The notes under the pieces: generated by a model
Seen by the model: only the letters and a program-made list of their open reading frames with translations
Told to the model about the DNA's origin: nothing
The model's database searches: none
Translations under genes and position numbers: made by a program
From: Siphonodentalium dalli
Taxonomy: Eukaryota; Mollusca; Scaphopoda; Gadilida; Siphonodentaliidae
NCBI GenBank assembly: GCA_032622095.1
Contig: CP136066.1
Span: 42,049,835-42,113,834 of the forward strand
Direction of reading: 5' to 3'
DNA length: 64,000 nucleotides
Shown: piece after piece, positions 1 to 51,900 of the stretch
How positions within the stretch are numbered: position 1 is the stretch's first letter
Layout of the letters: each line of letters opens with the position of its first letter

Positions 1-31
1 CACAGGGCCGTTCTGTTGGGTAAAGGGTTAA
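1..31 (+). mobile_element. Right end of a TTAA-1 MITE
   Basis: The window opens inside an element: CACAGGG and then the terminal repeat TGTTGGGTAAAGGGTTAA, identical to the right end of the full copy at 2217-2616. The TTAA target site is at 28-31. Confidence 0.85.
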
Positions 32-2216: not shown

Positions 2217-2616
2217 TTAACCCTTTACCCAACAGAAGGGCCCTGTGCCAATGCATTCTCTTATATATGCGAGTCGACCATAGGTCGCCTCGCATATATA
2301 AGAGAATGCATTGGCTTAACACATTAAAAATTATAAAATTGTTAAAGAATGTAAGAAAAAATGGTAAAAAGTGTTAAAAAAAGATTTTTTTTAGGCCAAT
2401 GCATTCTCTTATATATGCGAGGCGACCTATGGTCGACTCGCATATATAAGAGAATGCATTGGCACAGGGCATAACTGTAACCATCACAATGTGGTCAATG
2501 AGCCGGTTCCAATGATATCCATATTTGTATGGTTTTATTGAGACAGACCCAAGATAATTTAGGCTTTTGCAGCTTTATTTGGACGTTTTTGGCCGGTTTG
2601 TTGGGTAAAGGGTTAA
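2217..2616 (+). mobile_element. TTAA-1 MITE with two hairpin modules (full copy)
   Basis: This 400 bp element is bounded by TTAA. Its terminal inverted repeat is TTAACCCTTTACCCAACAG on the left and ...TGTTGGGTAAAGGGTTAA on the right, a TTAA/CCC...GGG/TTAA form that suggests a piggyBac-type transposase. Inside are two copies of a ~67 bp hairpin (CCAATGCATTCTCTTATATA arms) in opposite orientation, separated by an AT-rich linker. It has no coding capacity. A diverged ~30 bp motif (TTTAATATGTGTAA...GCTGAACT) lies on both sides of the insertion. Confidence 0.9.
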
Positions 2617-2649
2617 TAAGTTTAATATGTGTAATATAGCTGAACTTAC

Positions 2650-11569: not shown

Positions 11570-11721
11570 TAGAACCGCATGAGTGTCTGGATTTTTACGA
11601 ATTATCGCACTCGATTTGTTGGCGGAACGCGATACATCTCGGTCCCGCACTCGAAGTATTGCTCCGCCAACAAATCTCGTGCGATAATTTCGTCAAAATC
11701 CAGACACTCGTGCGGTTCTAT
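11570..11721. repeat. Long imperfect palindrome
   Basis: The left arm (ATAGAACCGCATGAGTGTCT ... GATTTGTTGGCGGA) is matched inverted by TCCGCCAACAAATC ... AGACACTCGTGCGGTTCTAT. The loop is about 30 bp. It abuts the tandem repeat at 11725-12000. Confidence 0.75.
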
Positions 11722-11724
11722 CTA

Positions 11725-12000
11725 TTTAGAACACGCGCACACAATTTACTACGTACAATTTATATTACAATCGTAGTAAAATCCTTATTTGGTTTGTGAT
11801 GTAATTATATATGTTAATAAGTCATTTAGAACACGCGCACACAATTTACTACGTACAAATTACAATACAATCGGAATAAAATCCTTATTTGGTTTGTGAT
11901 GTAATTATATATGTTAATAAGTCATTTAGAACACGCGCACACAATTTACTACGTACAAATTACAATACAATCCTTATTTGGCGTGTGATGTAATTTGTTA
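11725..12000 (+). repeat. Three tandem units of about 100 bp
   Basis: The units run TTTAGAACACGCGCACACAA ... TACTACGTACAA ... AATCCTTATTTGGTTTGTGA ... TATGTTAATAAGTCA. The third is shortened. A diverged relative of part of the unit lies at about 11060-11145 (TTTACTACGTAAGATTTATG). Confidence 0.8.
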
Positions 12001-12699
12001 GATTGGGTGAAGAATTCAAATTAGTTGTCATTTTAATGCTTCTGGTCGCCATTCTGGTCGCCATCTTTGAAAAATCAGCTCTTTTCTTATATATTATGCC
12101 TTATATATGTCATCAGCATAATTATTACTGGTATAGTGTGATCCTGATAACAAATTATATCCACTCCGGTGTCGTGTGAACGGGATGTTTAAAATGCTAT
12201 TTATGCACATTTATTTAAAAACAAAAATTAATTTACGCATAATATTATGTTCTACTTATGAGAATATATCATCTTCAGTATGGAAGTTTTGTCCCTTACT
12301 CTAATTGTCTCATGTAAATTTACCCTGGTATTTTTAACAGAATTCACAATGGTATTTTTCCTCCGCTATTTGTTGTGATTTCACCATGGTATTTTTCACC
12401 CTGGTGATTTCAGCTTTGTATTTTCACCCTGGATTATTTACCCCAGTAATTTCAGCCTTGTGTGTCCATCGTGTCCACGATGGTGATGTCAACCTTGTAT
12501 TTCACAGAACCACCTGGAACCATGGTGAATTTAGTCATGTGTTTCACTCTTGTGATTTGGCATACGCAATTATATAGTAGTTTTACCCTGGTGTACCACG
12601 GTAGCTTTTAAATTGCTTAACATTTTAGTCAACTAATTGGGGGTCATGGGTCATTTAATTACCTAAGACGCGATCCTATCAACCGAAGTATTCCCACCA

Positions 12700-15440: not shown

Positions 15441-15619
15441 TCTTAAATAACTATGACAACTTGTATTAACTGTTCGTATTTTAGTCATAACTGAATAGAG
15501 TGTACTCAGGATTCTAAATGGAGTAGACCCGAACGTTGTAAGCTAAAAACTGCACGTTTAATACTCCGGTCTGCAGATATAGCTATGTGGCAAAATACCT
15601 TATCGCAATAATAAATAGC

Positions 15620-15917
15620 TCAAAAATCACTTAAATAGTTCAAAAACCACCCGAAGTGTGTGTCAATTTGAATAGTAAAGTAAAACCATTCCAACCCCCA
15701 AACACACACCGCATATTGAAACTTATTGTTTACCTTAAAAGTCGACAAGTCGTCACGTGATGAGAGATTATAACCCGGCTGATCTCGGGCCTTTAGCTTA
15801 CAGCAACTCTCCGTCGCTACCGATTTGGGAATCGAGTGCACCTTTTTATCCAGACAAGCATGTTTTTGTCGTAAAAATGATCCGCTGCACGCTTTGTGCG
15901 AAGTCTCACAAAGCGAT
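15620..15917 (+). promoter_or_regulatory. Presumed NAA20 promoter and 5' UTR
   Basis: This stretch lies between the LINE remnant and the NAA20 start codon. A palindromic E-box CACGTG is at 15754-15759. No convincing TATA box is present, as is common for housekeeping genes. The transcription start cannot be placed from sequence. The 145-codon minus-strand frame over this region overlaps the coding exon and is probably a shadow. Confidence 0.35.
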
Positions 15918-18900: not shown

Positions 18901-21900
18901 TAATCTCATTTAAAGCTGTGATGCGTAAAAGTATAGTTGTGACAGTACAGAATATTGAAAATCAGTTGCGTGCACTCACATTCTTGGAGTTCGAAAGAAT
19001 TGAAAGGCAATATTATCACATCAAGGACATTCAATCTTGAGTTTAATTCATATAATTTAACTGCATCATCATTCTGCATTTCAGATATATATACATTCTT
19101 CGCAAAATGTTGCAATTATCTTTTGATTTTTAATGTTTGTCTCACTTGTCTGCCACTTGCCCCTCATGGCACATTCATAACTGACAATTAATTTCATCAT
19201 ATTTCAGCAGAACATAACCTTAAGTAAGACAAAGACACAATATTACCTACATGTAACTAAATGAATCCTGGTGTGTTCTATATCATGGGTTTGACTTTGG
19301 AGCATTTCTCGAAATATGAATTTCTCAAGTATTAAAAGTTTTTAAAAACTGAAATTGTTTCAAAGTCAAATTTTCTAACTTAGACCAATTCTAAGTTAGG
19401 AAACTCAATCAAATGGTTATGTTTATGTTCTAAATTACTAGAATTTGCAAAATATACCAAAAAATCTCAAAAACGAAAAAGCATGTTATGTTGCTTCATA
19501 CATGAACAGAACAAAACTCAACAACAGATAAACAGTTACTAGTATTCCGTTATAACAGTAGTGAATAAAGTATTATTGTAGAAAATTGTAAATGAGAAAA
19601 CACAGTACCAGAGCTCTCATTCAACTTATAGTGAAGAACGGAAGACAACAACAACAATTATAGACTGATTGACATACATTTTAGTATGATTTAAACAGTT
19701 ATCGATTACGGCAATACCACGGACAAAGCGAATTTTGAATTGTCTTTTATTAGTTGTATCTGTAGATATTGCTGTGCAGGAACCTTTCAGGTATATAGAC
19801 TCACTGGTCCAGGTGCTACCGCGGCCGAGTGACTTTATAATCCTGTGGTGACTCCAGTAGCATTATTTAACATGCACACACTGAGGCGAGTACACCTTAG
19901 CCATTATTCTGACAAACTTGTTATTTGATTTCATTGGTTAAATCATTAAGCTGTAAATTCGCGAAAAAAATAATGCGCCCTTTTTTATCACAATTGTTCT
20001 GACAAGTTGAAGCAAGACGTCCGATTTTTGTTGATTTTGATTTGAAAGTCCTCAATATAAGAGGCAATCTTTTTCAAGCCAATAACAGCTCCCGGTTGAC
20101 CTACATCATGCCATGAATCTCTACTAACTATGGCTAACACCCGTAGAGTGGATCATTTTCCACCAGTACAAAACCTGAGAATTTTTTAAGTCGAAAAAAT
20201 AGCATGGGGAATATATTTCTTAGTTATTACTGGTTCCTTAATATGTACTTCACTATAGGTGAAGATCCAAACTCGAAAATCTGGGTAATTAATTTAATGT
20301 TTATTGCGATATCGGCTCACAAAAGTCACAGAAAAACTTGCAATTTCAAACTGGGACCACCTCCTAATGTGAATTAGATTATTGAGGAACAAGTAACTCG
20401 AAATTGGACGATTTAAGTGACTTTGTGAGCGATTTAGTTTTATGGAATTTCTCCTGGGTAATTAATTCAATGTTTATTGCGATATCGGCTCACTAAAGTC
20501 CAAGAAAAACATGCAATTTCAAACTGGGACCACCCCCTAATGTGAAGTAGATTATTGAGGAACAAGTAGTAACAAAGATACATATTCCCTGCCTTGTTTG
20601 TTCAATGTTATAAAGTTCCCTGTCAAAACTGGTCAGAACATCAAAAAGTTTCAAGGTTTTGTACTGTGCAATATGATCTCTATGGGTGTTAGAATGATCA
20701 ACCGTTGACTGGAATATAGTCATGTGAGAATTGAATTGTAAATTGAAAATGGGTCACTCTTAAGGAATACTGTTGAAGACCGGCGGATTAGAAATAATGC
20801 TGGACGAACGTGCCGTTCATCGCCTGTCCTCTTTTACATGTAGGGGGACCTGGTATTGGTGATGTCTTTTCCTCACTGTCTGTAGGGACCAGATCAAAGA
20901 CATCTTAGTGAAAATATAACATCGAAAATGACTGATAATATGAGAAGAGGGCATCCTATATAGTATGATAATTTTGACATCGGATTCATGTTTCTCATAA
21001 TTAGCACCTATTGAAGTATACAATAGTGGTAAAATGTCATATTTGAAAACTCTTGCACGGTGGCCGGTGGGGAATCACATGGTTTCGAGGTTGGTATCAC
21101 AAATTGAAAATGGCCGAGGTGAGTGCAAACATACAAAAACATAATATACATGTACATGTATGAGAAACTATCACAAAGTGACAAAACAGCAATTTGACTG
21201 TTTTTAAAACAAGTTGAAATACTCAGTAGTTTTCTATAACATTCTGACCAAAGTCAGATTCATGGAATACACCTGTCCATACATCACGATACATCTAGGT
21301 GAATCTTTCGTCTGACAACATTGTTCAGATTAGTGCAAACAACTGAATTTGAACACAAATGTGGTGTCAGCTTGTTTGAAAAATAGTATGCCATACATGA
21401 ATGCTCGTAGCTGCCAAACTACTATGTAATATATCATTATCCTAGTTTATTACCCTTTTCCTAATGCGTGAATGTGTGATGCTCTTCTACTTGAAAGGCT
21501 GCAATTGAAAAACAGGTCGCACCAAAATTTTATGTAGGTCTCTTGATAACTGATTCTCACCTTAATTACATGTATTGCTCAATCAAGTCCCAAAATGAGA
21601 CATTTAAAATTATCAGTTCAATGAGTTGTCCATCTGTGACCTGCCATATCAAATCCAATCGGAAGTCGGGATGTTTTACCCTGTGCCAATGCATTCTCTT
21701 ATATATGCGAGTCGACCATAGGTCGCCTCGCATATATAAGAGAATGCATTGGCCTTACAATATTTTACAATTTTAATAATTTTTTCTTGTATTCTTTAAC
21801 AATTTTATAATTTCACCCATACAGAGCCCCAGACAAACATGAGCAGACGACACTCTTCTATTTGCTTCTATATATGTATGGGGCTCCCTGCAGGGTAATG

Positions 21901-24900
21901 GATGTTTTTTATTTTATGTCCTAAAAATTGTCAGAAACATTTATTTAAAAAAAATGATAAAAAATTGTTAGGCCAATGCATTCTGTTATATATGCGAGGC
22001 GACCTATGGTCGACTCGCATATATAAGAGAATGCATTGGCACAGGGTAAAAAAATCCCGACTTCCGACTGGATTTGATATGGCGGGTCACATATGTAGTT
22101 GTTAGTATCAGTTGTAGTCATTATAAGTTTTACCTACACTTCTGCTAACCTACATGTATGGGTTACCTAAAGCACAAACCAGGTGTAACAAAAATCAGTT
22201 ACGGTACACATAATTTTGAAATCTGCAGGCCTGGATTTAATACATGTACATATATATGCAAGCTTTGCTCTCTGGTCCACACCCAGGTAATATTGCATGT
22301 GGAAGCTAGAAGAAACTTAGGATATAGTATTATACAGTAATGCCCTAAGTAATCGACCCCTTAACCACAGCAGAATTATGGGTAACTTTTCAGGATTTAG
22401 TTGGAAATATGGCAACAAGCCATATTTCCGACTAAATCCTGAAAAGTTACCCATAATTCTGCTGTGGTTAAGGGGTTGATTACTTACATGTTGAGCATTA
22501 CTGTAAACAAGAATGGTAGAGATCTTTGTTTGAATTAAATTTCAATATTAAAATTAATTTCTACTGCAATCACATGGAATGTGTTCAGTATGTGAAGTTT
22601 TAGGAGCAACGTGATTGTCAATTTGCATGATTTCAGAAACCTACTAGTACATTGAAATATGGAAGATAAAATTCTCAACCACATGTCAGACGGTTGGCGG
22701 TTGTCGCAATACGACAGGGGAACAATGTGTCCATAACATAACTATCACAAGTACATGTATATCATACTCTGGAAACTACTTACATATGTAGCTCAAATTT
22801 CATGCATAAGAAATTTTAATGAAATTTGGTATGTGAGTTTACTAGCCCAAAATACGGGTCAAGTTCAAATTTGGGTTAAGCTCGGCAATTTTCACTTGGG
22901 TTATGGCATATTTTGCCATGCCATAGTGGTGCTCTTGTTATGAAAAGAAATAATAAAGTATTTTAGAGCACTTCTTTGGAATTTAAGCAATACAAAACTG
23001 TTAGTTATTTATTTATTAACCCTTTACCCAACAGAACGGCCCTGTGCCAATGCATTCTCTTATATATGTGAGTCGACCATAGGTCGTCTCGCATATATAA
23101 GAGAATGCATTGGCTTAACACATTAAAAATTATAAAATTGTTAAAGAATGTAAGAAAAAATGGTAAAAAGTGTTAAAAAAAGATTTTTTTTAGGCCAATG
23201 CATTCTCTTATATATACGAGGCGACCTATGGTCGACTCGCATATATAAGAGAATGCATTGGCACAGGGCATAACTGTAACCATCACAATGTGGTCAAGGA
23301 GCCGGTTCCAATGATATCCATATTTGTATGGTTCTATTGAGACAGACCGAAGATATTTTAGGCTGTTGAAGCTTTATTTGGCCGTTTTGTTGGGTAAAGG
23401 GTTAAACATACATAGAATGAAAAATAAATTCAAATTCATACCATTTTTTCCGTGAAACTTTGGCCAGGCAAGCAAGATACAAAAAATTTATAATATCCGA
23501 GTACAAACATTGGACTGTTCCCCTATCATATAATAATCGGCAACCGTGTCAGACCAGAACAGCTGCCAATTGGAAGTACACATTCTCAATGTGATGTGTC
23601 AATTGACACTAATCAGACTTTCAAATAATCGTGGATTGTCCCCCTTGGCCACAATGACATATTGAATTGTACAGATTATTCTACTCATTCATTGCTTAAT
23701 ATTTATTTCAGGAACTTGGATCCGCTCACAGAAACTGTATCCTTAAACGGACATGGCTCAATCGAGCTTCAATATTTTGTCTATTTGGAAGGACGTATAA
23801 GATAGGAAATATTGCTATACCAGCTTCATACTCTCTGAAAAATACTTGTCATGGTCTCAGCAGTTTTACAGATGTTTTCAACTTTTCTCATTGAAGACAA
23901 ACAAATGCTCTTTGTGTCTACCATATCAGGAATAGACTAACCCTGAACGCTGAATGCAAATTGTTGTTTGTGATTGGGAACCAAACACCGTGTTTAAGGT
24001 TGTACTACGTGGCTTTAATACATACCGGTACCGGACTTAAAATTCGTACGAGAATCAGAATCGATTCTCACAAATGATTCTCGCGTACATACATGTATCT
24101 CTGCTTTGTTATATGAAGACATCATATCATAGCTATTAGGCCAGGGTGTTTTTTTAAATTGGCCAACAAAATCTTTCAAAGCTATGCATGTACAATAAAT
24201 ATTGCAATTCTACATTCCTGTCGCATTCACATCAACTCATTTGACTGAAGATACAGGGAGAGGGTAAACTTTTTTTAAGATTTAAAAGTAAGATATTACT
24301 GTTGAGAAATTGACTCAGTGCGTTGAATTTTCAAAACTTTCCCAGGGGATGCCCTTCAAACTATCTCTAACATGGAATGAGCGATGCACCTTACCCCACT
24401 CCCAACCAACATAATGTGGCATAATCATGATCTGATTTTGATTCTCATACCCTCAAACTGGTGAATTCAGCTTTGATTCTCATACCCTCAAACTGGTGAA
24501 TTCAGCTTTGATTCTCATACCCTCAAACTGGTGAATTCAGCTTTGATTCACATACCCTCAAACTGGTGAATTCAGCTTTGATTCACATACCCTCAAACTG
24601 GTGAATTCAGCTTTGATTCTCATACCCTCAAACTGGTGAATTCAGCTTTGATTCTCATACCCTCAAACTGGTGAATTCAGCTTTGATTCTCATACCCTCA
24701 AACTGGTGAATTCAGCTTTGATTCTCACACCCTCAAACTGGTGAATTCAGCTTTGATTCTCATACCCCCAAACTGGTGAATTCAGCTTTGATTCTCATAC
24801 CCTCAAACTGGTGAATTCAGCTTTGATTCTCATACCCTCAAACTGGTGAATTCAGCTTTGATTCTCATACCCTCAAACTGGTGAATTCAGCTTTGATTAT

Positions 24901-27900
24901 CATACCCTCAAACTGGTGAATTCAGCTTTGATTCTCATACCCTCAAACTGGTGAATTCAGCTTTGATTCTCATACCCTCAAACTGGTGAATTCAGCTTTG
25001 ATTCTCATACCCTCAAACTGGTGAATTCAGCTTTGATTCTCATACCCTCAAACTGGTGAATTCAGCTTTGATTCACATACCCTCAAACTGGTGAATTCAG
25101 CTTTGATTCTCATACCATCAAACTGGTGAATTCAGCTTTGATTCTCATACCATCAAACTGGTGAATTCAGCTTTGATTCTCATACCCTCAAACTGGTGAA
25201 TTCAGCTTTGATTCTCATACCCTCAAACTGGTGAATTCAGCTTTGATTCTCATACCCTCAAACTGGTGAATTCAGCTTTGATTCTCATACCCTCAAACTG
25301 GTGAATTCAGCTTTGATTCTCATACCCTCAAACTGGTGAATTCAGCTTTGATTCTCATACCCTCAAACTGGTGAATTCAGCTTTGATTCTCATACCCTCA
25401 AACTGGTGAATTCAGCTTTGATTCTCATACCCTCAAACTGGTGAATTCAGCTTTGATTCTCATACCCTCAAACTGGTGAATTCAGCTTTGATTCTCATAC
25501 CCTCAAACTGGTGAATTCAGCTTTGATTCTCATACCCTCAAACTGGTGAATTCAGCTTTGATTCTCATACCCTCAAACTGGTGAATTCAGCTTTGATTCT
25601 CATACCCTCAAACTGGTGAATTCAGCTTTGATTCTCATACCCTCAAACTGGTGAATTCAGCTTTGATTCTCATACCCTCAAACTGGTGAATTCAGCTTTG
25701 ATTCTCATACCCTCAAACTGGTGAATTCAGCTTTGATTCTCATACCCTCAAACTGGTGAATTCAGCTTTGATTCTCATACCCTCAAACTGGTGAATTCAG
25801 CTTTGATTCTCATACCCTCAAACTGGTGAATTCAGCTTTGATTCTCTCAAAAATGGATGGATTTTAAGGCCTGCCGGTAGTAGTATTTATTTACAACTTT
25901 GCTCTAAATTAATAGTCTAGATGTTGTTTTGTCATATGTCCATGTACCGTAATGCTCTAATTAATCGACCTCTTAACCAAAGCAGAATTATGAGTAACTT
26001 TTCAGGATTTAGTCGGAAATATGGCTTGTTGCCATTCATCGGAAAGCTCTCGGGGAGAGCTTTCCGATGAATGGCAACAAGCCATATTTCCGACTAAATC
26101 CTGAAAAGTTACCCATAATTCTGCTTTGGTTAAGAGGTCGATTAATTAGAGCATTACTGTATGTACTATTTGGTTTATGTAAAATTATCTTTAGTGTACT
26201 GACTGTACTCGTTGGAACTTTCAAAGCTTTCGTAATGAGTTGTCACAGTATTATGTCATTTTAAAATTATATACGGGGCACATGCAAATTTTTTAGTCCA
26301 AAAAAAATAGATTTGGTTGCACTTTCCCTACGGACCATATTTTAAACCCCCTGCCCTAATTTTTTGTTCATGGTTTCCCAGAAGATATGTTTGAAATTGT
26401 TTGTAATATAAATAATAAAACACAAAAAAAAACAACAACACCTTTCAATGTCTCAAATTGTTTTCAGCTAAATATATTATTTTCATGCTCATTTGCATCA
26501 ATTGGTTTTCAAGTATGAATTCTCAGTTTAACCCTTTGAGTGCCAGGTCGATTTTTGTATCAACCCATATACCCTGTGCCAATGCATTCTCTTATATATG
26601 CGAGTCGACCATAGGTCGCCTCGCATATATAAGAGAATGCATTGGCCTAACAATTTTTGTTTTTTTTTGTTTTACAATTTATTTACAATTTTAATAATTT
26701 ATTCTTATATTCTTTAACAGACTTATTTTGTAGGTTTAGGGCCGATGAGATCGGCTCCTGGCACTCAAAGGGTTAATTGTTTACAGAATTTGGCCATTGT
26801 AAAATGTACTAGAGATCCTTAATAGTCTTTCAGTATGGACTGCCGTTCTACATGCAGTATTTGGCCCATTGGCCAGAATACTTCCAGGTGGCCGAGACTC
26901 CAACTGGAGAAATCATGGGATACAGTAAGTTTATTAATATGCCCACACCCCCGAGGTGGTTTGGGGTATATTGTCTAGGGCTTCGTCCGTCAGTCTGTCC
27001 ATCAGTCCAAACATATCACCTTATAACTCGGGGTGTTAATTAACGGATTTTGTTGTCCTTTGGCATGGTGATAGCACAGCTTGGGGGAAGTATACCCACA
27101 TGCTATGGGTTTTGTTCATTCATTTTTACCAGAGTTACTGTCCTTACGGACCTTTTTGATTCGGACATTTACAAATTTTGTGTCCGTACAAACATTCGGC
27201 TTGTAACTTTGGCATGGATCATCAGATTTGGTTGTGCTTTGATATGGTGATAGCACATGTTGTGGGGAAACCATACTTACTAGAGTTACGGTCCTTTTTT
27301 GACATGGAAATTTGTTAATTTTGTGTCCGAAAGAACATTTCAGCTTGTAACTTGGGCAAGTATAATCGGATTCTGATGTGCTTTGTTATGGTGATAGCAA
27401 AGCTCGGGGGAAATGATACCGACTTACTACAATAATGCCCTAAGTAATCGACTCTTTAACTACAGCAGAATTATTGGTAACTTTTCAGGATTTAGTCGGA
27501 AATATGGCTTGTTGCCATACATCGGAAAGCTCTCGGGGAGAGCTTACCGATTAATGGCAACAAGCCATATTTCCGACTAAATCCTGAAATGTTACCCATA
27601 ATTCTGCTGTAGTTAAAGAGTCGATTACTTAGGGCATTACTGTACATGTTATATCAGATGTCCATTTAATGTCAAAGCTACAAGATTTATAAGTAAATAG
27701 AGCCTTGTTTACCAGAGAATTTTATTTGTTGCGTTATCAGAAAATGTAAACATTAAACAATTGTCAATATACTAAATGATCGTATAATCACTTTACCTTT
27801 TTCTATCACGATAAATTATATATCATTTTGAAGACTTATTAATCGCAGACATGTCAGATGATTACTGTTATAGAAGAGTAACGGGATGTGACTTGGTCCA

Positions 27901-30900
27901 AAACAGCATCCACCCAACTGATATCCCAAGCTGTTACAGCATCAACCTAACTGATATCCCAAGCTGTTACAGCATCAACCTAACTGATATCCCAAGCTGT
28001 TATAGCATCAACCCAACTGATATCCCAAGCTGAACCCAACTGATATCCCAAGCTGTTACAGCATCAACCTAACTGATATCCCAAGCTGTTACAGCATCAA
28101 CCCAACTGATATCCCAAGCTGTTACAGCATCAACCCAACTGATATCCCAAGCTGAACCCAACTGATATCCCAAGCTGTTACAGCATCAACCCAACTGATA
28201 TCCCAAGCTGAACCCAACTGATATCCCAAGCTGTTACAGCATCAACCCAACTGATATCCCAAGCTGAACCCAACTGATATCCCAAGCTGTTACAGCATCA
28301 ACCCAACTGATATCCCAAGCTGTTACAGCATCAACCCAACTGATATCCCAAGCTGAACCCAACTGATATCCCAAGCTGAACCCAACTGATATCCCAAGCT
28401 GAACCCAACTGATATCCCAAGCTGAACCCAACTGACATCCCAAGCTGAACCCAACTGATATCCCAAGCTGTTGTGGGCAGAGAAGACTTGGTCTACACTA
28501 AAAGCAATGGAACTCTGCATGCTTTTCACAATATTTTTCAAACATTATGTTTAACCCTTTACCCAACAAACCGGCCAAAACCGGCCAAATAAAGATTCAA
28601 CAGCCTAAAATATCTTCGGTCTGTCTCAATAGAACCATACACATATGGATATCATTGGAACCGGCTCCTTGACCACACTGTGATAGTTACAGTTATGCCC
28701 TGTGCCAATGCATTCTCTTATATATGCGAGTCGACCATAGGTCGCCTCGCATATATAAGAGAATGCATTGGCCTAAAACAAATCTTTTTTTAACACTTTT
28801 TACCATTTTTTCTTACATTCTTTAACAATTTTATAATTTTTAATGTGTTAAGCCAATGCATTCTCTTATATATGGGAGGCGACCTATGGTCGACTCGCAT
28901 ATATAAGAGAATGCATTGGCACAGGGCCCTTCTGTTGGGTAAAGGGTTAATTAAAAGTATAAAAATAAATTGAGATATTCAAATAGTACAGTTTAAAATA
29001 TACATCAACTTTTTTCCCCTCCCAAATATTTGTAAACCAGGAAATGATATTGTGAGTGGCCTACATGTATTTTTTATTTTTTTCAGTCATGGGGAAAGCT
29101 GAGGGCACATCGGAGCTGTGGCATGGGCATGTGACGGCTCTTACTGTAGCCCCAGAGTTCCGCAGACTCGGCCTAGCCGGCACATTGATGAAAAATCTGG
29201 AAGAGATCTCAGAGAGGTGCTTATCTCGGTCACAGTTTAACCCCTTCTTTACTAAATGGATTCTCCCATTCAGTTATAAAAGTACTAGTATATACACAGA
29301 ACGACACGATGTGTAAATGGGTTTGTCGATATGGCACGAGTGCTGTCGTGGAAGGTTAGAACGAGAGGCGCTTGTGCCTCGAGTTCTATCCTTCCGCGAC
29401 AGCACGAGTGCCGTATCGACAAACCCATTTACACATCGTGTCGTTCTGTGTTTATTACACGCTTCGCGTCCTAGAATCCGTGCATTAAAAATACAGGATT
29501 AGAAGGTTTGTTTAGGCTCATACAGGGCGTGTTTGTCATCTGTGATGATTCTTTTATTTAAATAATTCCAGTTTCATGGTTGAGGCGAACATCATGTACG
29601 TCATTTTACGTCAACGAGATATGTATGGAACGTACGTTCCATACGGATTTGTAAATATGGAACAGCAATAACACTGTACTTCTAGGAACAAGCGTGTAAT
29701 AAAAGTTAGAATGGTCTGTTATTCATCTGGAGTGATGGATTCTCCCATTCAGTTATACTTATGTACATGTACCTATGAAGTTATGAACAACAATGCAAAA
29801 TTAAACAACTTAAGTATCACCGTAACATATTCCTGTACCAAATTAAGCAGTATTCACACCCGATATTTCTTTGACCACCTAAAAATAGTGTCAATTTCCA
29901 CATTATTGCTGATAACATATACCTCACGATCTTGAAAAATATACAGGTATTGCAAGATGATCAAGCAGGTCACAGCATGAAGACATTAAGATAATCATAT
30001 TGACTACTCAGTTAAAGCATAAAAAATTACTACAGTCTCCATCTCACACCCTGACCCCCCCCCCCCCCCACCTAACCCCATGCCCCCAACCCTTCTTGCC
30101 CATGTATATACGGAACTACACACATTGTGAGTGAATACCCACATGCACAATGCATCCTCAATTATACGTAAACATTATACTTTATCATTATAATCGCATA
30201 ACGGCACTGCCAGAAGTTAAACTTTATGTGGGGTCCTGTTCTTGTAAATCAAATATATTGTTTGAATATCAATTAAATTTCATTCAATCTTGATAAAAGC
30301 AAGCCTTGATATAGTGAGCCTGTCATTTGCAGAATGAGGTCCCCAGAGGGTGAATTTGGTGATGCTAGCCCACTATGCGGGGTAGCATCACTAAATTCAC
30401 CCTCTGGGGACCTCATTCTGCAAATGATAGGCTCACTATTTCAAGGCTTGGATAAAAGTATACATTGGAATGGTTTGTTATTCATCTGGAGGGATGTTCA
30501 GGAAATAGAAGAAGACTTATTATTATCCATACCTTAACTAACATTCTTTCTGATTGGGTCAAAGCCGCCACGTGATAATCTGGGAAAAAGTCATATTGGA
30601 CTCCCGAATGTCATATTGGACTCCCAAATGTTCAATATGACTTTTTTATCGGGACTCTGTGATGTCATGAATTAACTCTATCATGATATGAATCGGTGGA
30701 ATTGTGATGCGCGCGCAACACTGGTGGATATAGCAGACGTTTAACTTCCGCATTGAGTTGCGGTGAAAAAGTCATATTGGACTCGACACTGCGTGTCTCG
30801 TCCAATATGACTTTTCTCCACAACCTGGACTCGTACAAGAAAGACACATACTGTACACAACATTGTATAATAGGAACTACTTGTACTTATCAATGAGTAT

Positions 30901-33900: not shown

Positions 33901-36900
33901 GGTCAAATCACCAGTCCATATATGTTCCTACTTCAGGTTAAACTGTTGGACAGATCTAGAATTGGCCACAAATTTTAACTTTATGGGGGTGTCAGGTTGG
34001 TAATTTTCAAATGGGGTCACCTTGTCAAATAGGGGCCAAGCGAAGGACAGTTTTCCTCTTAATATGCTTCCTTCACAAGGACCATCAGGTCTATTTTACT
34101 GATATTTAGAATGAAGGGTTCTTTGGTGTATGGGATTCAAATTTATTCAGATGGGGTCACCAGGTTAAATGGGGTGGGACCAGGGACATAACTGTATGTC
34201 TCTATAGTAATACTTAATATGTCTTCTCAAGAGAGGTTGGACTATTTAGCTTACATATAGCATGGAGGATCCTTTAGTGTCTCAGATTCAGATTTGTTAA
34301 CATGAGGTCAACCTGTTAAGAAATGACGGGGCTATGGGGACTTAACACTTTTGCGTCTAATAAAATCATTAAAATACAAAATTCATTAAAACATCTACCT
34401 TGGAACTACCTGACTGATTAATCTGACATACATGTATGGTGTTTTGGGTCCATGGATAATTGGGCTTCAAACATGTCTAAATGGTTTTATAAAAAGGCGC
34501 TTGTGAGATTGGAAATTTCCAACAATTGAGAAAGTTTGAGATGTCGGTTGTGAAATTCCAACCTATTAGACTTGGGAGTCTGGAGCCCGGTCGGGAGGGG
34601 ATTTGTTGAGCTGGAGGAGGGGGGGTGGGGTGATCAGTAGTGTACAGTTGGTAATTTCAAGGTAGATATTCACCGATCTACATACAGTAATGCTCTAAGT
34701 AAGCGACTTCTTAACCACAGCAGAATTATGGGTAACTTTTCAGGATTTAGTCGGAAATATGGCTTGTTGCCATTCATCGGAAAACTTTCATCGGAAAGCT
34801 CTCACCGAGAGCTTTCCGATGAATGGCAACAAGCCATATTTCCGACTAAATCCTGAAAAGTTACCCATAATTCTGCTGTGGTTAAGAAGTCGCTTACTTA
34901 GAGCATTACTGTACATGAAGCCTCTCTAGCCACATATCCTGTTTAGATCTACTTCTTTTAAAATGATTATGAAAAGTTCTGACTGTTGTGGTCTCCAGAG
35001 TCCCAGTCTTATCAGTCTTTGCAGTCTGGTGAGCGACCCCACAGTCTTTGACTGTCTTGTTTGGTATGGAGCCACCATGTCAAATAGGGACAGAGCCCAG
35101 GACCAAACTATTTTCTTCAAATTTACTTACTTTAAGTCTTAACACGTTGATTGCCAACTACGAGTTACATGTATCTCATACTTTTTGCTTGTAATTGAAT
35201 GGGAGCCGGCACTCAACGTGTTAATATGTTTTTTTTCACAAAACCATCAGGTCTATTTTGCTGACATTTACATGGAGTAGGAAGATGACCTGGATTAAAA
35301 TTTATTCAGTTAGGGTCACATGGTGAAATAGGGCGAGACCAGGGACATACCGCTAACTCTTTCCCTCTATAGTAACTCTTAAAACTTCTTCTAACCCTTT
35401 ACCCAACAGAAGGGCCCTGTGCCAATGCATTCTCTTATATATGCGAGTCGACCATAGGTCGCCTCGCATATATAAGAGAATGCATTGGCTTAACACATTA
35501 AAAATTATAAAATTGTTAAAGATTGTAAGAAAAAATGGTAAAAAGTGTTAAAAAATGATTTTTTTTAGGCCAATGCATTCTCTTATATATGCGAGGCGAC
35601 CTATGGTCGACTCGCATATATAAGAGAATGCATTGGCACAGGGTATAACTATAACCATCACAATGTGGTCAATGAGCCGGTTCCAATGATATCCATATTT
35701 GTATGGTTTTATTGAGACAGACCGAAGATATTTTAGGCTGTTGAAGCTTTATTTGGCCGGTTTTGGCCGGTTTGTTGGGTAAAGGGCTAAAGAACCATTG
35801 GACTATTTAGCATATTATATCAGTTCCTTCTCAGTGCTCGCATCATGAATGGCTTTGGGCTGTGCGTGACTCCGAGGGACCCCTCCACCGGTGGGGGATG
35901 TATTCCATCAGCAGGCAGTAGGTTATAGTTCTGTAGTAGAGCTGACAAGAACAGGTAGAATTCCATTTTAGCAAGAGACTCTCCTGGACACAGACGTCTT
36001 CCTGCAATGAAACGTCAACAATTTCTTTTAGCACACCCTGCAGGTCACCTCTCTCATCTCTCATGGTGACCTCTAGATGGGAGCCATCATTTTTTTTTTT
36101 TTACGAAATTCATTCAAATGCATGGTCGCCAGCAACTTTGTTGGATTTAAAATTTGAGTCCATCAGCACATTCTGCAGCACACATTGGAGAAATATTTTT
36201 AAAATTTACAGGCATTTTTAGGATCACTTCTAGATGGGAGCTATCAAATTTGAATGATTTTCGATGAAAACATTGGATTTTATTCTTCGCATTGGATTTT
36301 ATTCTTCGCATCTGTTTGTATGACTAAATAATTTCAGCTTGTTGACCTCTGGTATTGCTTAAACATTTAAACTTTCCGCAGGCATGTTTAGGATCATCTC
36401 GATGAAAAACATGGCCACCATCAGCCATCTTCCATTTTACACTTTGTATGACTAAATCCTTTGGCACACCCAACAGATAACATCCCTTCTCCGATCGTCA
36501 CCAGACTGGATATGGATCGTTGGGGTGACCACTAGATTGGAGCTATCAAATTGTTCCAAAAGCGGCATCTTGGATTTTACTCTTAGCATGACTAAATCAT
36601 TCGGCCCACTCTACAGGTGACATCTCTCATGCTGAATCCCAAACTTTATATACATGTATCTCTTCATGTTAACATCTAGAATTACTTGGACATTTCAACT
36701 TTACGCATTCCTAATCGCTATTGACAAACATGAAATTATCCCCTCTCCAATGAACTACAGTGTCCTTGACACTTCCATATACCATTGATTTTGACTTATG
36801 TTCGTTTATGTTTGTTTGTGCTTTTACGTTTTTAGTTAGGACCGTTGGACATAGGCCAATAGAATAGATTGAATAGCATATAGATCAAAAAGAGAGAGAA

Positions 36901-39900
36901 GCATCTGATTTCAGGGATAAGAACTTTCTTGTCCCTTGATTACAGTCTACCTACCAATTGAGAATGCAACAAATTCCTCTGGGATAATTTTCTTCCCCTT
37001 CTCATCAATGAATCTGGATGGCAGATACTTTGTGGGCTCTGGAAAATGAGTTTCGTCAAACAGTACCGAATGTATATTGTGTAAAAGAAGAGCATCTTGT
37101 GGTATGGTATAGCCATGGAATTGGGTCTCTTTAGACACGCAATGTGGAAAACCAATCGGTACAATACCAGAAATCCGTAATGTTTCCAAAACAGTTGCAT
37201 TCATGAGGGGCAAGGCAGATCTATCAGCCATTGATGGTTTGCGGTCGCTTTGGATGGCTGAATCAAGTTCTTCATGAAGTTGTCGTTGAAGAGTGGGATC
37301 TTGTAGAATGTATAAAAGGCAGAAACTCAAAGCTGAGGCTGTTGTGTTAGTTCCTGCTTCAAACAGTTCTTGCACAAACCTCGCAAGTTCGTCCTCTGAA
37401 ATGTATGAATGAAGAGACAGTTTTTTCTAAATAAATCATGGGGAGAAGTGCAAAGGAGAAAATACATGTAGGTAGCAGTATCCTAGATTGGATATTTGGT
37501 TTACCTGAAAAATTAAATCGAAGTGGTAAGTCGAGGAATTCGAATTCGAGTGAATGAAAATGGGCGCGAAAAGCTTTTATACCAAGGGTTAGTATTATGG
37601 GCTATCCAAGAGAATCATGGGAAGTTCAAAGGTCACTATAGTTTTGTCAAACAGAAACATACCGGTATAGAGTAATATTTATATAGTCTGTTGAGTATTA
37701 TTTCCGGTTTAGTAATTACAAATTTTGTAAACAAAATAGCCCCATTGTCACATATCAATGAAAAACAATTTTGTTTGTAGTGTCTAGGTGGAGGGGCCCT
37801 GGGGTAACAGTTGATAAGATGCATTGGACATTAATAGCCTTATTTAGGTCAACATAAGCCATTAATGTATAATATGTGAATGTTTCCATTATTCAAAGAA
37901 GCGTCTTTGCATGACTAAATCCTTTGGTACACCCTACAGTCCACATCCCTCAACCGATCATCACCAAACTTCATATGGCTCTTTGGGATGACCTCCTGAT
38001 GGGAGTCATAATTTTTTTTCCGAATTTCTTTAAAAAAACATGCTCTTTGCATGACTAGATCCTTTGCCAAATCCTACAGTCAACATCCCTCATCTGATCG
38101 TCACCAAACTTCATTTTATCTTCGGGGTTACCACTAGATGGGAGCTATACATTTTTTTTTAATTTCATTGGAAAATATGTCCGCCAGTGGCATTCTTGGA
38201 ATTTACTTTATATATATGTTTTCATGTTGACATCTAGTATTTAATACTTAGACATTTCAACTTTCCGCATTTCTTATCACTCCATTGACTGTAAGACATG
38301 AAATTATCCCACCTCCAAGTTAAGTTACAGTGTCATTGACACTTTCGTTAACCCTTTACCCAACAGAAGGGCCCTGTGCCAATGCATTCTCTTATATATG
38401 CGAGTCGACCTATCATTGGCTTAACACATTTAAATTATAAAATTGTTAAAGAATGTAAGAAAAATTAACTATAACCATCACAATGTGGTCAATGAGCCGG
38501 TTCCAATGATATCCATATTTGTATGGTTTTATTGAGACAGACCCAAGATATTTTAGGCTGTTGAAGCTTTATTTGGCTGGTTTTGGCCAGTTTGTTGGGT
38601 AAAGGGTTAAGGATATCCCCATAGGTGAAGTGGTTGGGTCATGTATGGATAAGATCGTCACAGTCTGGGCTAGACGAGGTTGGCACAGGTTGAAATCCCG
38701 ACTTGGGCAAATCATATCAGGACCTATTTTCGAGCTTAATAAAAAAAATGAGAAACTGTCCATGCTCACTGAAGCGTGCAAGCACATTTGAAGCAATGCA
38801 CATGCACTCATACTATAAAGTCTTTGTTTCATAAATCTGTTAGATATAAGAACCATTTATTTAGCAATAGCAAACAGCGATTCAATGATGGTTTCGTTAA
38901 CACAAGCTCAATGATCTAACTATAAACATCTAAATTTATAAAAAATTTATATTGAAAGTTATTCATAACTTATTCACATGTATATATTTTATTAATTCGC
39001 CGAGTACCGTGTATCGGGATTACGCGAACACTCAGCACTGTGAAAATTGACTGAGTACCTATGGGATGGACCGGTACTGGTTCCATTGAGAAGCCTGAAC
39101 CAAATCAATTAACCAATCTAGGTGGGGAATTCATGAGATATAGCAGTAGCCAGGATGTCATGGATTTCTTTAACCCTTTACCCAACAAACCGGCCAAAAC
39201 CGGCCAAATAAAGCTTCAACAGCCTAAAATATCTTCGGTCTGTCTCAATAGAACCATACAAATATGGATATCATTGGAACCGGCTCCTTGACCACATTGT
39301 GATAGTTATAGTTATGCCCTGTGCCAATGCATTCTCTTATATATGCGAGTCGACCATAGGTCGCCTCGCATATATAAGAGAATGCATTGGCCTAAAAAAA
39401 ATCTTTTTTTAACACTTTTTACCATTTTTTCTTACATTCTTTAACAATTTTTTAATTTTTAATGTGTTAAGCCAATGCATTCTCTTATATATGCGAGGCG
39501 ACCTATGGTCGACTCGCATACATAAGAGGATGCATTGGCACAGGGCCCTTCTGTTGGGTAAAGGGTTAAACCAAAATATCTTACTTTCTCTCAACCTGTT
39601 GCTCTCAAAATGATCTTCTCGCCTTAATTGTTTGTATGTGTACTACTAGTATTTAATAAATAGAGCATGGTTTGGAGTTGGCTATGCAGATATAGTGCCC
39701 AGTGGGGTGGGTATAGTTCACAACGCGTAGCACTATATATATGAATTCAAGTTCAATAATCTGAAATGCACAGTAATTAGGTTTTGTTTTGAATGCATGA
39801 ACACCCGAAACTGTATTACAAGGTGAATTCAACTGAATGTTGCCACTTTGCAAGTTGATGTCTTTCCTGTAAAAACACTTTTCACAGTAATGTTTTATTT

Positions 39901-45900: not shown

Positions 45901-48900
45901 TTTGACAAAGTAGCTGAAAGCACTAACATAAACATTAACCCTTTGAGTGCCAGGGGCCGATCTTATCGGCCCTAAACCTACAAAATACGTCTGTTAATGA
46001 ATATAAGAATAAATTAATAAAATTGTAAAAAAAATTGTAAAAAAAAATAAAAAATAAAAAATTGTTAGGCCAATGCATTCTCTTATATATGCGAGGCGAC
46101 CTATGGTCGACTCGCATATATAAGAGAATGCATTGGCACAGGGTATATGGGTTGATACAAAAATCGACCTGGCACTCAAAGGGTTAAACAACAGCATACA
46201 GAAAATAGATTTACAATTTGAGAATGCGCCAAAATATAAGAAAATATAGAGTTATCACTCTTTGTCTACCATAGATTCATGTATAGAGCTGCTATGGATT
46301 GGACGACACAAACCTGGCAGATGCCATAGCTACATGTTTTAGGCATTCAACATCGAGAGGTGGTATTTCCCACACATTTAACCCTTTGATGACTGTTGTA
46401 TCCATTGATTAGTAGCTCACTATGTGAATGATCAGATAATAAGTTAAAAAATTACCTAAGGCTGTTTTTTAACTTATTTATATCTGAAATTTCCTCTAAA
46501 TGACCAGCTACATGTAGGTATCATATGCTTTCGCCACTTTCATTATTAAAACACTGCTCGAAATGAATAATAGACCATTCCAATGTATCTCTTTATTCAT
46601 GAGTGGGGAAAATCCATTCAGTAACAAAAGGGTTAACCCTTTACCCAACAGAACGGCCAAAACCGGCCAAATAAAGCTTCAACAGCCTAAAATATCTTCG
46701 GTCTGTCTCAATAGAACCATACAAATATGGATATCATTGGAACCGGCTCCTTGACCACATTGTGATAGTTACAGTTATGCCCTGTGCCAATGCATTCTCT
46801 TATATATATGCGAGTCGACCATAGGTCGCCTCGCATATATAAGAGAATGCATTGGCCTAACAAAAATCTTTTTTTAACACTTTTTACCATTTTTTCTTAC
46901 ATTCTTTAACAATTTTATAATTTTTAATGTGTTAAGCCAATGCATTCTCTTATATATGCGAGGCGACCTATGGTCGACTCGCATATTTAAGAGAATGCAT
47001 TGGCACAGGGCCCTTCTGTTGGGTAAAGGGTTAAGGGATAGTGACAGTCTCTTTAGAAATCATGCCTTTTACCAAGCTCTTTCCAACACGATCTTCTATT
47101 ACTAGTACAAAAATTTGCATATAAAGTGTACATTCTCTAATTATTGAAACAGGACGCTACCACAAACCCCGTAAACTGGATGAAGATGACCAAATTTATT
47201 TCCACTGTCCGAACAGGAGAAAGGAAGATGAGAAACACATTTCTCCTGTATATCAAAATTTAAGAAACAAACATAAAGAATTATTCTTAAGCAAAACTGA
47301 AGATACAAATATTTGTTCCCTTCTCAATCACACATCATTAAATGTGTCTTTAATAGGCAAGCAAGAACAGTTTTATCTGAGGCCCTGAAGGTTCGAAAAG
47401 AAAAGCTACATGGCAATACACAAATTGATGGCAGAAAATTCATTTATGTTTTTGAATAATTATTCTTCATTGTTTTATTGATGTTACTAGTCCAAGTCTT
47501 CTCGTACTAAAACTAGCTAAGATTTTGGGATGGAGATGCTAGTATTTAGTCCGAGTTCCAGGCCCATGCATTCCTATGACACGACTTAAGCGTTAGTGAC
47601 CCGCTCAAATAAAACCACAATTATATGAAATAAAATATCACAATTGCGACAATAAACGGATATTTTCCGCAGAAGACTAGCTATTTTATCTGAAACCCAC
47701 ATCGTTTGTGAATTGAAAGCCGTAATTTAATGTGAAAAGAGACATTTGCCGCAGTGTTTACATATTTTTAAAAGTATGCGAACTCAGTTGACCTTGCGAA
47801 CTGCGTTCGGCATTTTCCGGTGAAAATATTCCGTAGATTTTCAATCAACCACGCACGATGAATTCTCCATTGTAATCGTAATTATACGTGACAATAAATA
47901 AATGAATACATAGATTAAATAAATATTGAAGATATAAATGTAATACATTTAATAAATTACGGGAATTACAACCATCTCACAGTTTAAAACAGTGTAAACA
48001 CAATGAGCATTAGAATATCATGGGGGCCGCCATTTTGTTTGTATCGAAATTCGTCTCGGCCAAAACAAACACCGGACAATGCCGAAGTTCTTCGGAACCT
48101 GAGTTCGGCTTTCAGTTAAGTAAACAAACAGAAAAAACAACGATGTTTGTGGCAATCAACCGGAATATTCTATGTGTAATTTAACATTAAAGTTAGATTA
48201 TTATACACCATTATGACCATAATATGTCACTCTTTCCGATGTATATAGCATCATGTATTGCTTTGTTAGGTAAATCGAGTAAAATACACCACAGATTTGC
48301 TACAGATCCTGGGCGTAACTCGTGTCATAGGAATGCATGGGCCTGGAACTCGGACTAAATACTAGCATCTCCATCCCAAAATCTTAGCTAGTTTTAGTAC
48401 GAGAAGACTTGGACTATGATGTTACATGCTCTTTATTGTTCGATTTGTGGGATGACGCAAATATGTTATGTCATGTGCATATATCCAATAAATGGTTTGA
48501 TAAAAAAAATAATAACTAAGGTTTAACCTAGACAATATTTGTACAGAAATGGTCTTAACTATTTTTTGAAGCATTGTGCAATTGCATTGAACATTAAAAC
48601 AGTTTGCTATTAAAGTGATCTGTTTGCAACTTTCCGCAATTGCATATTTTTTTGCGGTTCCCAAAATTGGCAAATTTTGCGATTGATTGAAGGAGTAGGA
48701 TTAAGGCGTTTCCATGCCAGGAGGTGGAAAGTTTAGATGAACCTACACAGAAAACTACTTAATTGTTAAGCTAGTACACCACATGAAGGAATCTATGCTA
48801 TCTATTAAAAGACCACAGTCTATTTAAAAAGCTGACAATTTTTTTGCAATATTTACAATATAAATCTCATTCATAATCAGTTACTGAATTGATGGGATTT

Positions 48901-51900
48901 CCTCCATTTCATTAACCCTTTACCCAACAGAACGGCCCTGTGCCAATGCATTCTCTTATATATGCAAGTCGACCATAGGTCGCCTCGCATATATAAGAGA
49001 ATGCATTGGCTTAACACATTACAAATTATAAAATTGTTAAAGAATGTAAGAAAAAATGGTAAAAAGTGTTAAAAAAAGATTTTTTTTAGGCCAATGCATT
49101 CTCTTATATATGCGAGGCGACCTATGGTCGACTCGCATATATAAGAGAATGCACTGGCACAGGGCATAACTGTAACTATCACAATGTGGTCAATGAACCG
49201 GTTCCAATGATATCCATATTTGTATGGTTCTATTGAGACAGACCGAAGATATTTTAGGCTGTTGAAGCTTTATTTGGCCGGTTTTGGCCGGTTTGTTGGG
49301 TAAAGGGTTAAAGAGTGGCGATGCATTGGTTTATGGCATAACGGATCACTTCACAGATCAGAGGTCAATGACATGTTGACAAGTTTCCATATATATAGCA
49401 CTCCATATTTGGAAATGGTTTATTACGTCATGTTGGGAATGCCACGCCGTTGTAGAAATCAAATTTAGTGGACACTTCTAGAGACGTACACACGTTAGGA
49501 TTATCGTCGTCTTTTTGAGGGCCTGTGGCCCTGGCACAAAGGTGCCGCAGACCCATAGAGTATTAGGGACCTGTATGCGCTTCGTACACATTTGGACCTA
49601 AATATTCGCATAGGATCATATTCGATTTACTTGATTCTGAAATAAGCCAAGCCCATAGTGGACATATACCCATTATTCTGTTGGATGGTGCAGGCCACAG
49701 TGAAAACACATATATATTAAAAGAGCATACATCTGGTCTGAAAATAGGATCATATTGAACCTAAATATTCAGTTTTGATTCTGAAATACCCCCATAGTGA
49801 GCTTATTTTAATTTGTATGTTTTTAGCTCACCTGAGACGAAGTCTCCGGTGGAGCTATAGTCATCACTCCTCGTCCGTCGTCCGTCCGTGCGGGCGTCTG
49901 TCCGTCCGTGGACACAATTTTGTCCGGAGTTTTTCTCAGTCGTTTTATGATTATTTTCCTCAGTCGTTTTATGATTATTTTCCGTGAAACTTGGCACAGA
50001 CCACCCTGGGAACCTGTGCACCTGCGATTATGACGTCTGTCAGACTTTTTTTGGTGGAGTTGTCCCCCTTTTTCGACTTAGAAATTTTTCGCAACATGTA
50101 TAATTTTGTCCGAGCTTTTATTCCTACATTTTTAGGTAAATATTTTTAAAACTTAGCACAGATATTTAGTACCATGGGAACCTGTGCACCTGCGATTATG
50201 ACGTCTGTCCGACATTTTTTGGTGGAGTTATCTCCCTTTTTCGACTTAGAAATATTTTTGCAAGATGCATAATTTTGTCCGAGCTTTTATTCCTACATTT
50301 TTGGGTCAATTGTTTTTAAACTTGGCACAGATATTTAGTACCATGGGAACCTGTGCACCTGCGTTTATGACGTCTGTCCGACATTTTTTGGTGGAGTTAT
50401 CCCCCTTTTTCGACTTAGAATTTTTTTCGCAACATGCATAAATTTGTCCCAGCTTTTATTTAGTCAATAAATTTAGGATTAGAGTTAGGAGTTAGGGTTA
50501 GGGGGTTTAGGGTTAGGGTTACCTGTTGACATAATTTCAGTGCCAAATATATGGTAATGGCTACTTCATTCAAATAACATTTTGAATACGGGGGGTATTA
50601 CTTAGTCCCATCTGGGACAAGCCCATCTCTAGTTGAATTTATTATGTGAATATTTTACCCTCCAATTAACACCACTCCTTCTGTTCTTTTACTATTTTGT
50701 TGTCCGGATGATAACTTAACTCTTTCAGTGCCAAGTCCGATTTTTGTATCAACCCATATTTCCTTGATCATTTTTCAAATTTATTGATTATAATAATGTC
50801 ATACATTGATGGAAAGAGCTCTTAGAATTTGCTTACTATTTTGACAGAATTTTATGAAACTTGTTATGTGGTCGTCATATAAGAAAGAACCGATGGAGAA
50901 CACAACAAAGATGAGCTATATATATTTTTTACCCTGTGCCAATGCATTCTCTTATATATGCGAGTCGACCATAGGTCGCCTCGCATATATAAGAGAATGC
51001 ATTGGCCTAACAATTTTTTATCATGTTTTTTAAATAAATGTTTCTTACAATTTTTAGGACATAAAATAAAAAACATCTATTAACCTGCAGGGAGCGCCAC
51101 ACATATATAGAAGCATAGAAGAGTGTCGTCTGCTCATGTTTGTCTGGGGCTCTGTATGGGTGAAATTATAAATTTGTTTATAATTTACAAGAACAAATTA
51201 TTAAAATTGTTAGGCCAATGAATTCTCTTATATATGCGAGGCGACCTATGGTCGACTCGCATATATAAGAGAATGCATTGGCACAGGGTAAAAAAATCCT
51301 GACTTACGACTGGATTTGATATGGCGGGTCACATATAGAATAGAAATAAACCGCGCAATTCAAAAGAGTCCGAACTCAAGTAAACAAAATGATTGCAAAC
51401 TGATTGATGCTCTAACTGTACTGAAGAAAATGAAAACTAAAATGGCATATTCTGTTCAGTATAAAAGGAGATGGTCCCATAAATGGCCGAATTTAACCCT
51501 TTAAAAATACCCCTTTAACTAATCAATAAGGCCAAAAAACCCACACAAAAAAATGTTGGTTCTCAGGCCCCGCTGCATTGAATAAAAAGGGCCGCACTAG
51601 GCCTTTTTATTGCAATGCCTGATGTTATGACAAAAAAACTTACGAAAAAATAAATTTAAAAAAAAAAAAAAAAAAGTTTTTTGGGATTTTATCAACATGT
51701 CCATAGCAGATATGTGTTGAATATTAGTGTGCATTGAGCTCTAACATCTAATGTGTTAAAAAGTGACTTGCAGGCTTACAACATGAAGTAGATGACTACA
51801 ATTAAGAAAATGATTAGCTGATCCTCATGCTCTTCTTACAATTAGTCATTGTGAACAACTTACACTAATTGTAAATTTATACAATTGAAAGGCACAGGAC

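Follow-up and report, generated by a model that had tools for sequence, protein, structure and literature searches.

To our knowledge, unrelated families of miniature inverted-repeat transposable elements (MITEs) normally share no identical internal block. Chimeric transposons are known from Galileo, a Foldback-like element of Drosophila mojavensis, in which 12 of 170 copies were counted as chimeric, either in the terminal inverted repeats (TIRs) of its subfamilies or in their ends and interiors, and for which the authors invoke ectopic recombination and conversion (PMC3573991). The ends of piggyBac and piggyBat carry subterminal palindromes of 14-19 bp that serve as transposase sites, and subterminal sites can also restrict activity (PMC11707139). 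We analysed a stretch of 64,000 nucleotides of the scaphopod mollusc Siphonodentalium dalli (GCA_032622095.1, contig CP136066.1), in the following called the window, corresponding to C6:42049835-42113834 of a genome of 2,226,750,531 bases (2.23 Gb) in 9 contigs. Here a 67-bp hairpin, the module, recurs inside MITEs of three terminal types, T1 (TTAA-1), T2 (TTAA-2) and F3 (family 3).

Galileo is the nearest case found, as it likewise combines the ends of one subfamily with the interior of another, but its chimeras join subfamilies of one transposon, whereas ours involve the T1, T2 and non-TTAA F3 terminal types (PMC3573991). In addition, the joints here lie at an identical 67-bp hairpin, the copy number is far higher and one hybrid appears to have been amplified, and the target duplication of T1 and T2 is TTAA (4 bp) in comparison to 7 bp in Foldback and Galileo. 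The differences from Galileo are thus that exchange crosses terminal types, that a fixed hairpin marks the joints, and that the scale is larger. A literature search gave no match to this arrangement, although this does not prove that none has been published. The likeness to piggyBac and piggyBat consists of the TTAA target and of palindromes a short way inside the tip; in contrast to those 14-19 bp sites, the palindrome here is a 67-bp hairpin that lies about 27, 47 or 150 bp from the tip and is found also in the non-TTAA F3 (PMC11707139).

We consider it rather probable that a complex of non-autonomous DNA transposons (MITEs) carries the module as its inner-terminal hairpin and that the families of this complex traded arms and interiors there. 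The families share an inner unit of CCCTGTG, the 67-bp hairpin and an AT-rich linker, and the longest form adds a core, a further linker, an inverted hairpin and CACAGGG. Judged by sequence, the outer arms fall into terminal families that are not related to each other, namely the TTAA-flanked, piggyBac-like T1 and T2 on the one hand and F3 on the other. Besides the shared unit we observed family boundaries at its base, T2 elements free of the module, a symmetric T1 element, reciprocal hybrids and hybrids flanked by TTAA.

The module reads CCAATGCATTCTCTTATATATGCGAG-TCGACC-ATA-GGTCGC-CTCGCATATATAAGAGAATGCATTGG, and the window contains 20 complete copies and one remnant. The 20-mer arm CCAATGCATTCTCTTATATA gave 41 window matches with at most three mismatches (0.01 expected by chance), corresponding to 20 arm pairs and a single arm at 38379, and GAGTCGACC and GAGGCGACC gave 20 and 19 matches (0.13 and 0.07 by chance). 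CCCTGTG was located on the GAGTCGACC side in 18 of 18 tabulated window modules; in the table the copy at 35422 is represented by an identical one, and the copy at 46787, with its 2-bp insertion, is absent; both have the same polarity. In the consensus, to which this check was confined, the stem is fully paired save for the loop and one T:C mismatch, which is the source of the polarity, the T side adjoining CCCTGTG. A few modules have point changes, for example CAAGTCGACC at 48943. As single-stranded DNA the hairpin folds with -36.3 kcal/mol (z = -14.6). The first-pass annotation had reported about 20 blocks of fixed polarity in several MITE families, and both the number and the polarity were borne out in T1, T2, F3 and a composite element. 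It had put the block at about 75 bp; the block is indeed common to the families, but the common part is larger, comprising CCCTGTG, the hairpin and the AT-rich linker, and in F3 it further extends to the core and the second, inverted hairpin. A known RNA family was rejected as an identity for the module, as Rfam gave no match at gathering score in the window, and a viral or bacterial source was rejected with no exact matches (26 and 20 nt) among viral and other genome contigs. The LINE frames and cytochrome P450 exons of the window show it to be eukaryotic.

Genome-wide, 155,111 modules were counted (77,632 and 77,479 on the two strands) with a 44-nt part of the module and at most three mismatches, these being near-exact matches without indels that miss diverged copies; a reversed 44-nt control pattern gave no match in the whole genome. 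The density is about one per 14 kb genome-wide versus one per 3 kb in the window. From this one genome 136 loci (labels beginning with L) were fetched, of which 96 lie within the initial 45 Mb of contig C1. Almost all of the loci were chosen by pattern or similarity and do not form a random sample; the family identity of tips is based on TTAA and tip sequence only. Among 115 distinct modules from the window and the loci fetched by then, many of them chosen for a perfect 44-mer, 37 were in T1 left, 37 in T1 right, 13 in T2, 20 in F3 and 8 in other contexts. The elements of the window are the following.

1..31, minus strand: T1 tip with CCCTGTG, truncated at the window start
2217..2616, plus strand: T1, modules at 2248-2314 and 2396-2462, TTAA on both sides, inverted tips CCCTTTACCCAACA
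21636..22090, plus strand: F3, modules at 21686-21752 and 21973-22039 with the core between them, inverted arms GTGACCYGCCATATCAAATCC...TTTA beside CCCTGTG
23016..23405, plus strand: T1, modules at 23047-23113 and 23195-23261
26528..26776, plus strand: T2, module at 26579-26645, TTAA on both sides, tips CCCTTTGAGTGCCAGG
28551..28950, minus strand: T1, modules at 28705-28771 and 28853-28919
35391..35790, plus strand: T1 with CTAA flanks on both sides, modules at 35422-35488 and 35570-35636
38348..38610, plus strand: T1, internally deleted, half module at 38379
39170..39569, minus strand: T1, modules at 39324-39390 and 39472-39538
45935..46187, minus strand: T2, module at 46070-46136
46633..47034, minus strand: T1, modules at 46787-46855 (2-bp insertion) and 46937-47003
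48912..49311, plus strand: T1, modules at 48943-49009 and 49091-49157
50716..51336, plus strand: composite, modules at 50939-51005 and 51215-51281

T1 elements are about 400 bp long, with TTAA flanks, inverted CCCTTTACCCAACA tips and two inverted modules. Eight copies in the window have the full span (those starting at 2217, 23016, 28551, 35391, 38348, 39170, 46633 and 48912), and the earlier description of two modules per TTAA-1 element fits seven of them, the copy at 38348-38610 being deleted to half a module. TTAA was present on both sides in 26 of 30 extracted T1 rows, an extraction that needed a TTAA-like tip (at most three mismatches) and listed one window element on both strands. T2 elements (TTAA flanks, CCCTTTGAGTGCCAGG tips, about 250 bp) have one module, and TTAA stood on both sides in the 14 listed rows, which were picked by a TTAA-like tip and list most elements on both strands. 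Both types have the terminal inverted repeats and target-site duplication of MITEs, are short and non-coding (about 190-480 bp), and combine the TTAA target with CCCTTT-like tips as in piggyBac; their very high copy number, too, is like that of ordinary MITEs. No stop-to-stop frame of at least 150 aa overlapped the window elements. F3 is built from two inverted 53-bp arms that start with GTGACCCGCCATATCAAATCC and end in a T-run and A before CCCTGTG, and its interior consists of CCCTGTG, module, linker, core, linker and module. The 4-mers beside GTGACC form an exact pair in only some F3 loci (ATTT/ATTT, ATAT/ATAT), with one mismatch elsewhere. The composite, described earlier as a chimera with two modules, does have two modules, but it begins with a module-free T2-type tip followed by a hairpin unit, the left flank of which is a T-run beside unplaced sequence and the right arm of which is F3.

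The module consensus was identical in five element contexts, whereas the linkers differ. Over the module and CCCTGTG there were 0 of 74 differences in each of four pairs compared, and the linkers differed in 17 of 73 (T1R-F3a), 5 of 55 (T2-F3a), 15 of 62 (T1R-T2) and 22 of 74 (F3a-F3b) aligned columns, with 11 to 47 further gap columns. The arms of T1, T2 and F3 have no evident common sequence beyond the CCCTTT of T1 and T2, in agreement with the initial claim that the ends of the families are unrelated or only distantly related, and the joints between these arms and the block lie no more than about ten bases from CCCTGTG.

The T2 tip TTTTTGTATCAACCCATA occurs at 24,610 genome places. Among 100 listed continuations, 67 ran into the module (in two of these, one base of CCCTGTG is altered; ten of the 67 form one tandem array on C1), one ran into a remnant consisting of CCCTGT and then other sequence, and 32 were module-free, many of the latter being the two ends of one element. 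Three module-free copies that were read (L013, L121 and L122) are short palindromes with TTAA and a T2-type tip at both ends and are classified here as fold-back MITEs, which suggests that the hairpin is not indispensable for T2-type ends. For T1, the locus L120 (C1:7787800) holds a symmetric element between TTAA sites, in which a 143-bp arm and its inverted counterpart enclose CCCTGTG, a module, the linker, a second module and CACAGGG. Because of this copy, the short T1 left end looks like the 143-bp arm with an internal deletion, the ends of which share CC. The sequence CCCTTTACCCAACARAACGG gave 28,099 matches, and 100 of 100 listed continuations followed the long-arm or the short-left form, a few with point changes or small deletions; there was no module-free T1 among these 100, and the long-arm form would not reveal one. 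The possibility raised at the outset, that all hosts are deletion derivatives of one parent, thus applies within T1, where the asymmetry is a deletion, and there only: the T2 end is found both joined to the module and free of it, T1 and F3 form reciprocal hybrids, and the hosts did not all arise from one parent by deletion.

Hybrids between families were found in both directions. A T1 end followed by the module and an F3/T2-type linker occurred at 242 places (131 + 111), and an F3-type T-run followed by the module and a T1 linker at 180 places (89 + 91), both with at most three mismatches, over 119 nt and 109 nt, respectively. All seven loci read from the first set (six fetched and L123) contained F3 core sequence. 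In five of them (L123, in its second element, L124, L127, L128 and L129) T1 tips on both sides enclose both modules and an F3 interior, and L125 and L126 are damaged. L123, L127 and L129 are bounded at either end by TTAA and the usual tips; L128 has TTAA on both sides with one changed tip, and L124 has TTGA and TTAA. Seven loci were fetched from the second set. T1 tips are present at both ends of L131, L133 and L135, which carry patches of 9, 21 and 15 bp, respectively, outside CCCTGTG; L130 and L134 have the right T1 tip only, L132 has no T1 tip and L136 is rearranged. The L133 patch is clearly F3 sequence, with a junction sharing CAG. In L089, 51 bp including a whole F3 arm stand between the T1 tip and the T1 interior; it is the one row used from a classification in which the linker classes of AT-rich rows are noisy. 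L089 was rejected as an ancestral nest of F3 in T1: its T1/F3 junction gave 682 matches with at most three mismatches, of which only L089 was exact and four had one mismatch. Four T1 copies (L089, L131, L133 and L135) therefore have F3-like patches of 9-51 bp directly outside the hairpin, and because their junctions all differ, several independent events are needed. Capture or exchange among families, as first proposed, is upheld by the same block beside unrelated arms, by T2 ends with and without it and by the reciprocal hybrids, and exchange of ends and interiors between families at the hairpin is well supported.

As a mechanism, identical hairpins in about 155,000 dispersed copies would offer sites of homology for gene conversion or template switching, and the hairpins may also be sites of breakage or stalling. 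Repair starting in the hairpin of one element would copy outward or inward from the copy of another family and return at microhomology, so that arms and interiors are swapped. Successful chimeras would then be amplified by whichever transposase recognises the outer tips. The identity of the module across families would be maintained by the same conversion or by selection for some role of the hairpin. More tentatively, the hairpin may be a recombination dock, at which non-autonomous transposons of different superfamilies trade arms and interiors, the interior repeatedly gains new transposases and conversion keeps the hairpin identical genome-wide. If so, transposon ends would be interchangeable parts around a fixed hairpin.

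Several observations weigh against exchange at the hairpin. Exchange has not been caught in the act, the copies compared being those of one genome. The five hybrids with T1 ends and an F3 interior probably go back to one founder that was amplified, because they have a common right junction, CACAGGG|TATTTTAGG, and would thus represent one event. Only L133 and L089 have clearly F3 patches, those of L131 and L135 being mostly T-runs that could be simple expansions. Arm-to-arm repair within one hairpin leaves no clear trace: changes on both sides of the stem were rare, with none among 10 changed pairs in the window and 8 among 80 outside it, and intramolecular correction was rejected with arms mostly changed one at a time. 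Each arm could have gained the unit initially by nested insertion, and units with other flanks and T-runs on both sides exist in L075, L102, L103, L106, L110 and L111.

Nested insertion is the main rival, and we regard it as unlikely. In this explanation the unit from CCCTGTG and its hairpin to the second hairpin and CACAGGG is a small transposon of its own that entered T-run/A-run sites and was carried along by T1, T2 and F3, deletions having shaped the rest. The structure of F3, two inverted 53-bp arms around a T-run, the unit and an A-run, agrees with this, as do the existence of T2 hosts without the module and the six loci just named. Among these, the L111 unit is central in a palindrome with a 60-bp arm for which the only match was its partner, at 88% identity (40 of 106 candidates scored). 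Moreover, the far side begins with TAAA in six of seven such copies (L093 excepted); for L075, L110 and L111 both sides were among the places selected. However, a clean empty F3 site was not found: the joined F3 arms have one genome place by exact pattern, which retains CCCTGTGC-CG-GCACAGGG and is an F3 whose interior was deleted at the hairpin base. TTTTA-CCCTGTG has 3,888 exact genome places in comparison to 219 for C/G-TA-CCCTGTG, so that plain TA is insufficient as a target, and by eye more than half of 100 listed C/G-TA-CCCTGTG places are T2 or F3 variants. Duplication of TA at both unit ends, as in Tc1/mariner, was not observed, TA being absent from the T1 left joint, which has no T-run either, and from the right side of L093. 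A nested transposon with TA as its target was rejected as the main explanation on the rarity of C/G-TA contexts and the T1 left joint. Of 20 fetched T-run places with non-F3 upstream sequence, eight show a whole or partial F3 arm on the far side, which calls for breakage instead of insertion, six are without a far end and six have other sequence on both sides. In our reading the T-run copies arose at the hairpin base by breakage, by template switching or by one-ended insertion, insertion of the unit itself being less likely. The patch hybrids, too, are left unexplained by nested insertion. Long direct repeats were seen in L096 (16 bp) and L102 (17 bp) and, in a second set of T-run copies, in L130 (69/70, at least 70 bp long, the locus ending within the repeat) and L132 (62/64); no single mechanism considered explains all four.

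Common descent, in which a hairpin acting in cis (as a transposase-binding site, for example, or in a replication or excision step) was inherited from a common ancestor and kept by selection while linkers and ends diverged, appears improbable. It would account for a module identical between families beside diverged linkers. Within the window the module had 0.9% substitutions (11/1206) versus 2.7% (33/1214) in the T1 right arm, a comparison that is confounded by T1 subfamilies and in which the T1 left tip (1.2%) and linker (1.1%) are close to the module; unusual conservation inside T1 was rejected on these grounds. A role of the hairpin in transposition is possible because piggyBac-type transposases bind subterminal palindromes (PMC11707139). 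The genome has at least 128 matches to PF13843 (DDE_Tnp_1_7, piggyBac transposase; 116 of 649 candidates scored), many in open frames of 500-700 aa. Two transposase loci, L059 and L066, have T2-like TTAACACGTTGAGTGCCGG and an unrelated hairpin with arms of 38-39 nt about 150 bp from the TTAA tip (L059:674-755, L066:3313-3396), and TTAACCCTTTATCTGC was found near the transposases of L068 and L069. A repeated 22-bp perfect palindrome flanks another piggyBac transposase (L065:3066-3131). The 12 transposase loci read had no T1 tips, and a TTAA-flanked TIR pair was not found within 1.5 kb of their matches. Against common descent, none of the 12 carried the module, and a transposase element carrying it was rejected for these 12 loci of the 128 matches. 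The module-free T2-type palindromes and the dissimilar arms of T1, T2 and F3 likewise argue against descent from one ancestor.

Retroposition, in which the machinery of a long interspersed nuclear element (LINE) copied MITE transcripts ending in CACAGGGU and poly(A), with the T-runs by CCCTGTG as reversed A-tails, is very improbable: the four direct repeats, the six T-run copies without a far end and a window LINE with endonuclease and reverse transcriptase are consistent with it, but the other 23 of 27 T-run loci read have no long direct repeat, three of these 23 being ordinary TTAA insertions and several lacking one end, the far end of L130 and L096 is an exact transposon terminus, and direct repeats of 64-70 bp are unusual for LINEs.

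Exchange of arms and interiors at the hairpin, the reading that we prefer, touches on how MITEs without common ends come to share interiors and how they escape the loss of their transposase, questions usually argued from a few chimeras. With 155,111 junction copies and hundreds of hybrids in one genome, tract length, microhomology and the success of chimeras can be counted, and end exchange between transposon families would become a measurable process.

Some further features were observed. A diverged relative of the module stands beside GGGTTAACCCTTTCATGG at L128:522-588 and is perhaps one more hairpin-bearing family. At C1:727-926 kb (G000) module pairs are evenly spaced (about 14.5 and 11.2 kb), most likely as a tandem array with units holding the same T1 copy. 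The loci L048/L053, L049/L052 and L050/L051, at about 1.8-2.1 and 3.3-3.6 Mb of C1, have matching flanks in opposite orientation, which is either a large inverted duplication or an assembly artefact. In the window, near-perfect palindromic repeats of other fold-back families, with arms of 77-171 bp and spacers of 3-15 bp, lie at 25945-26161, 27428-27644 and 61437-61793. Tandem arrays are located at 24437-25846 (35-bp unit, 40 copies, 99% matches) and 43888-45863 (33-bp unit, 61 copies), and the GC skew is 0.91 over 44001-46000. The LINE endonuclease and reverse transcriptase are encoded at 12667-15358 in three overlapping frames, and cytochrome P450 exons lie on the minus strand at 36947-37426 and 40544-41209, between MITE copies.

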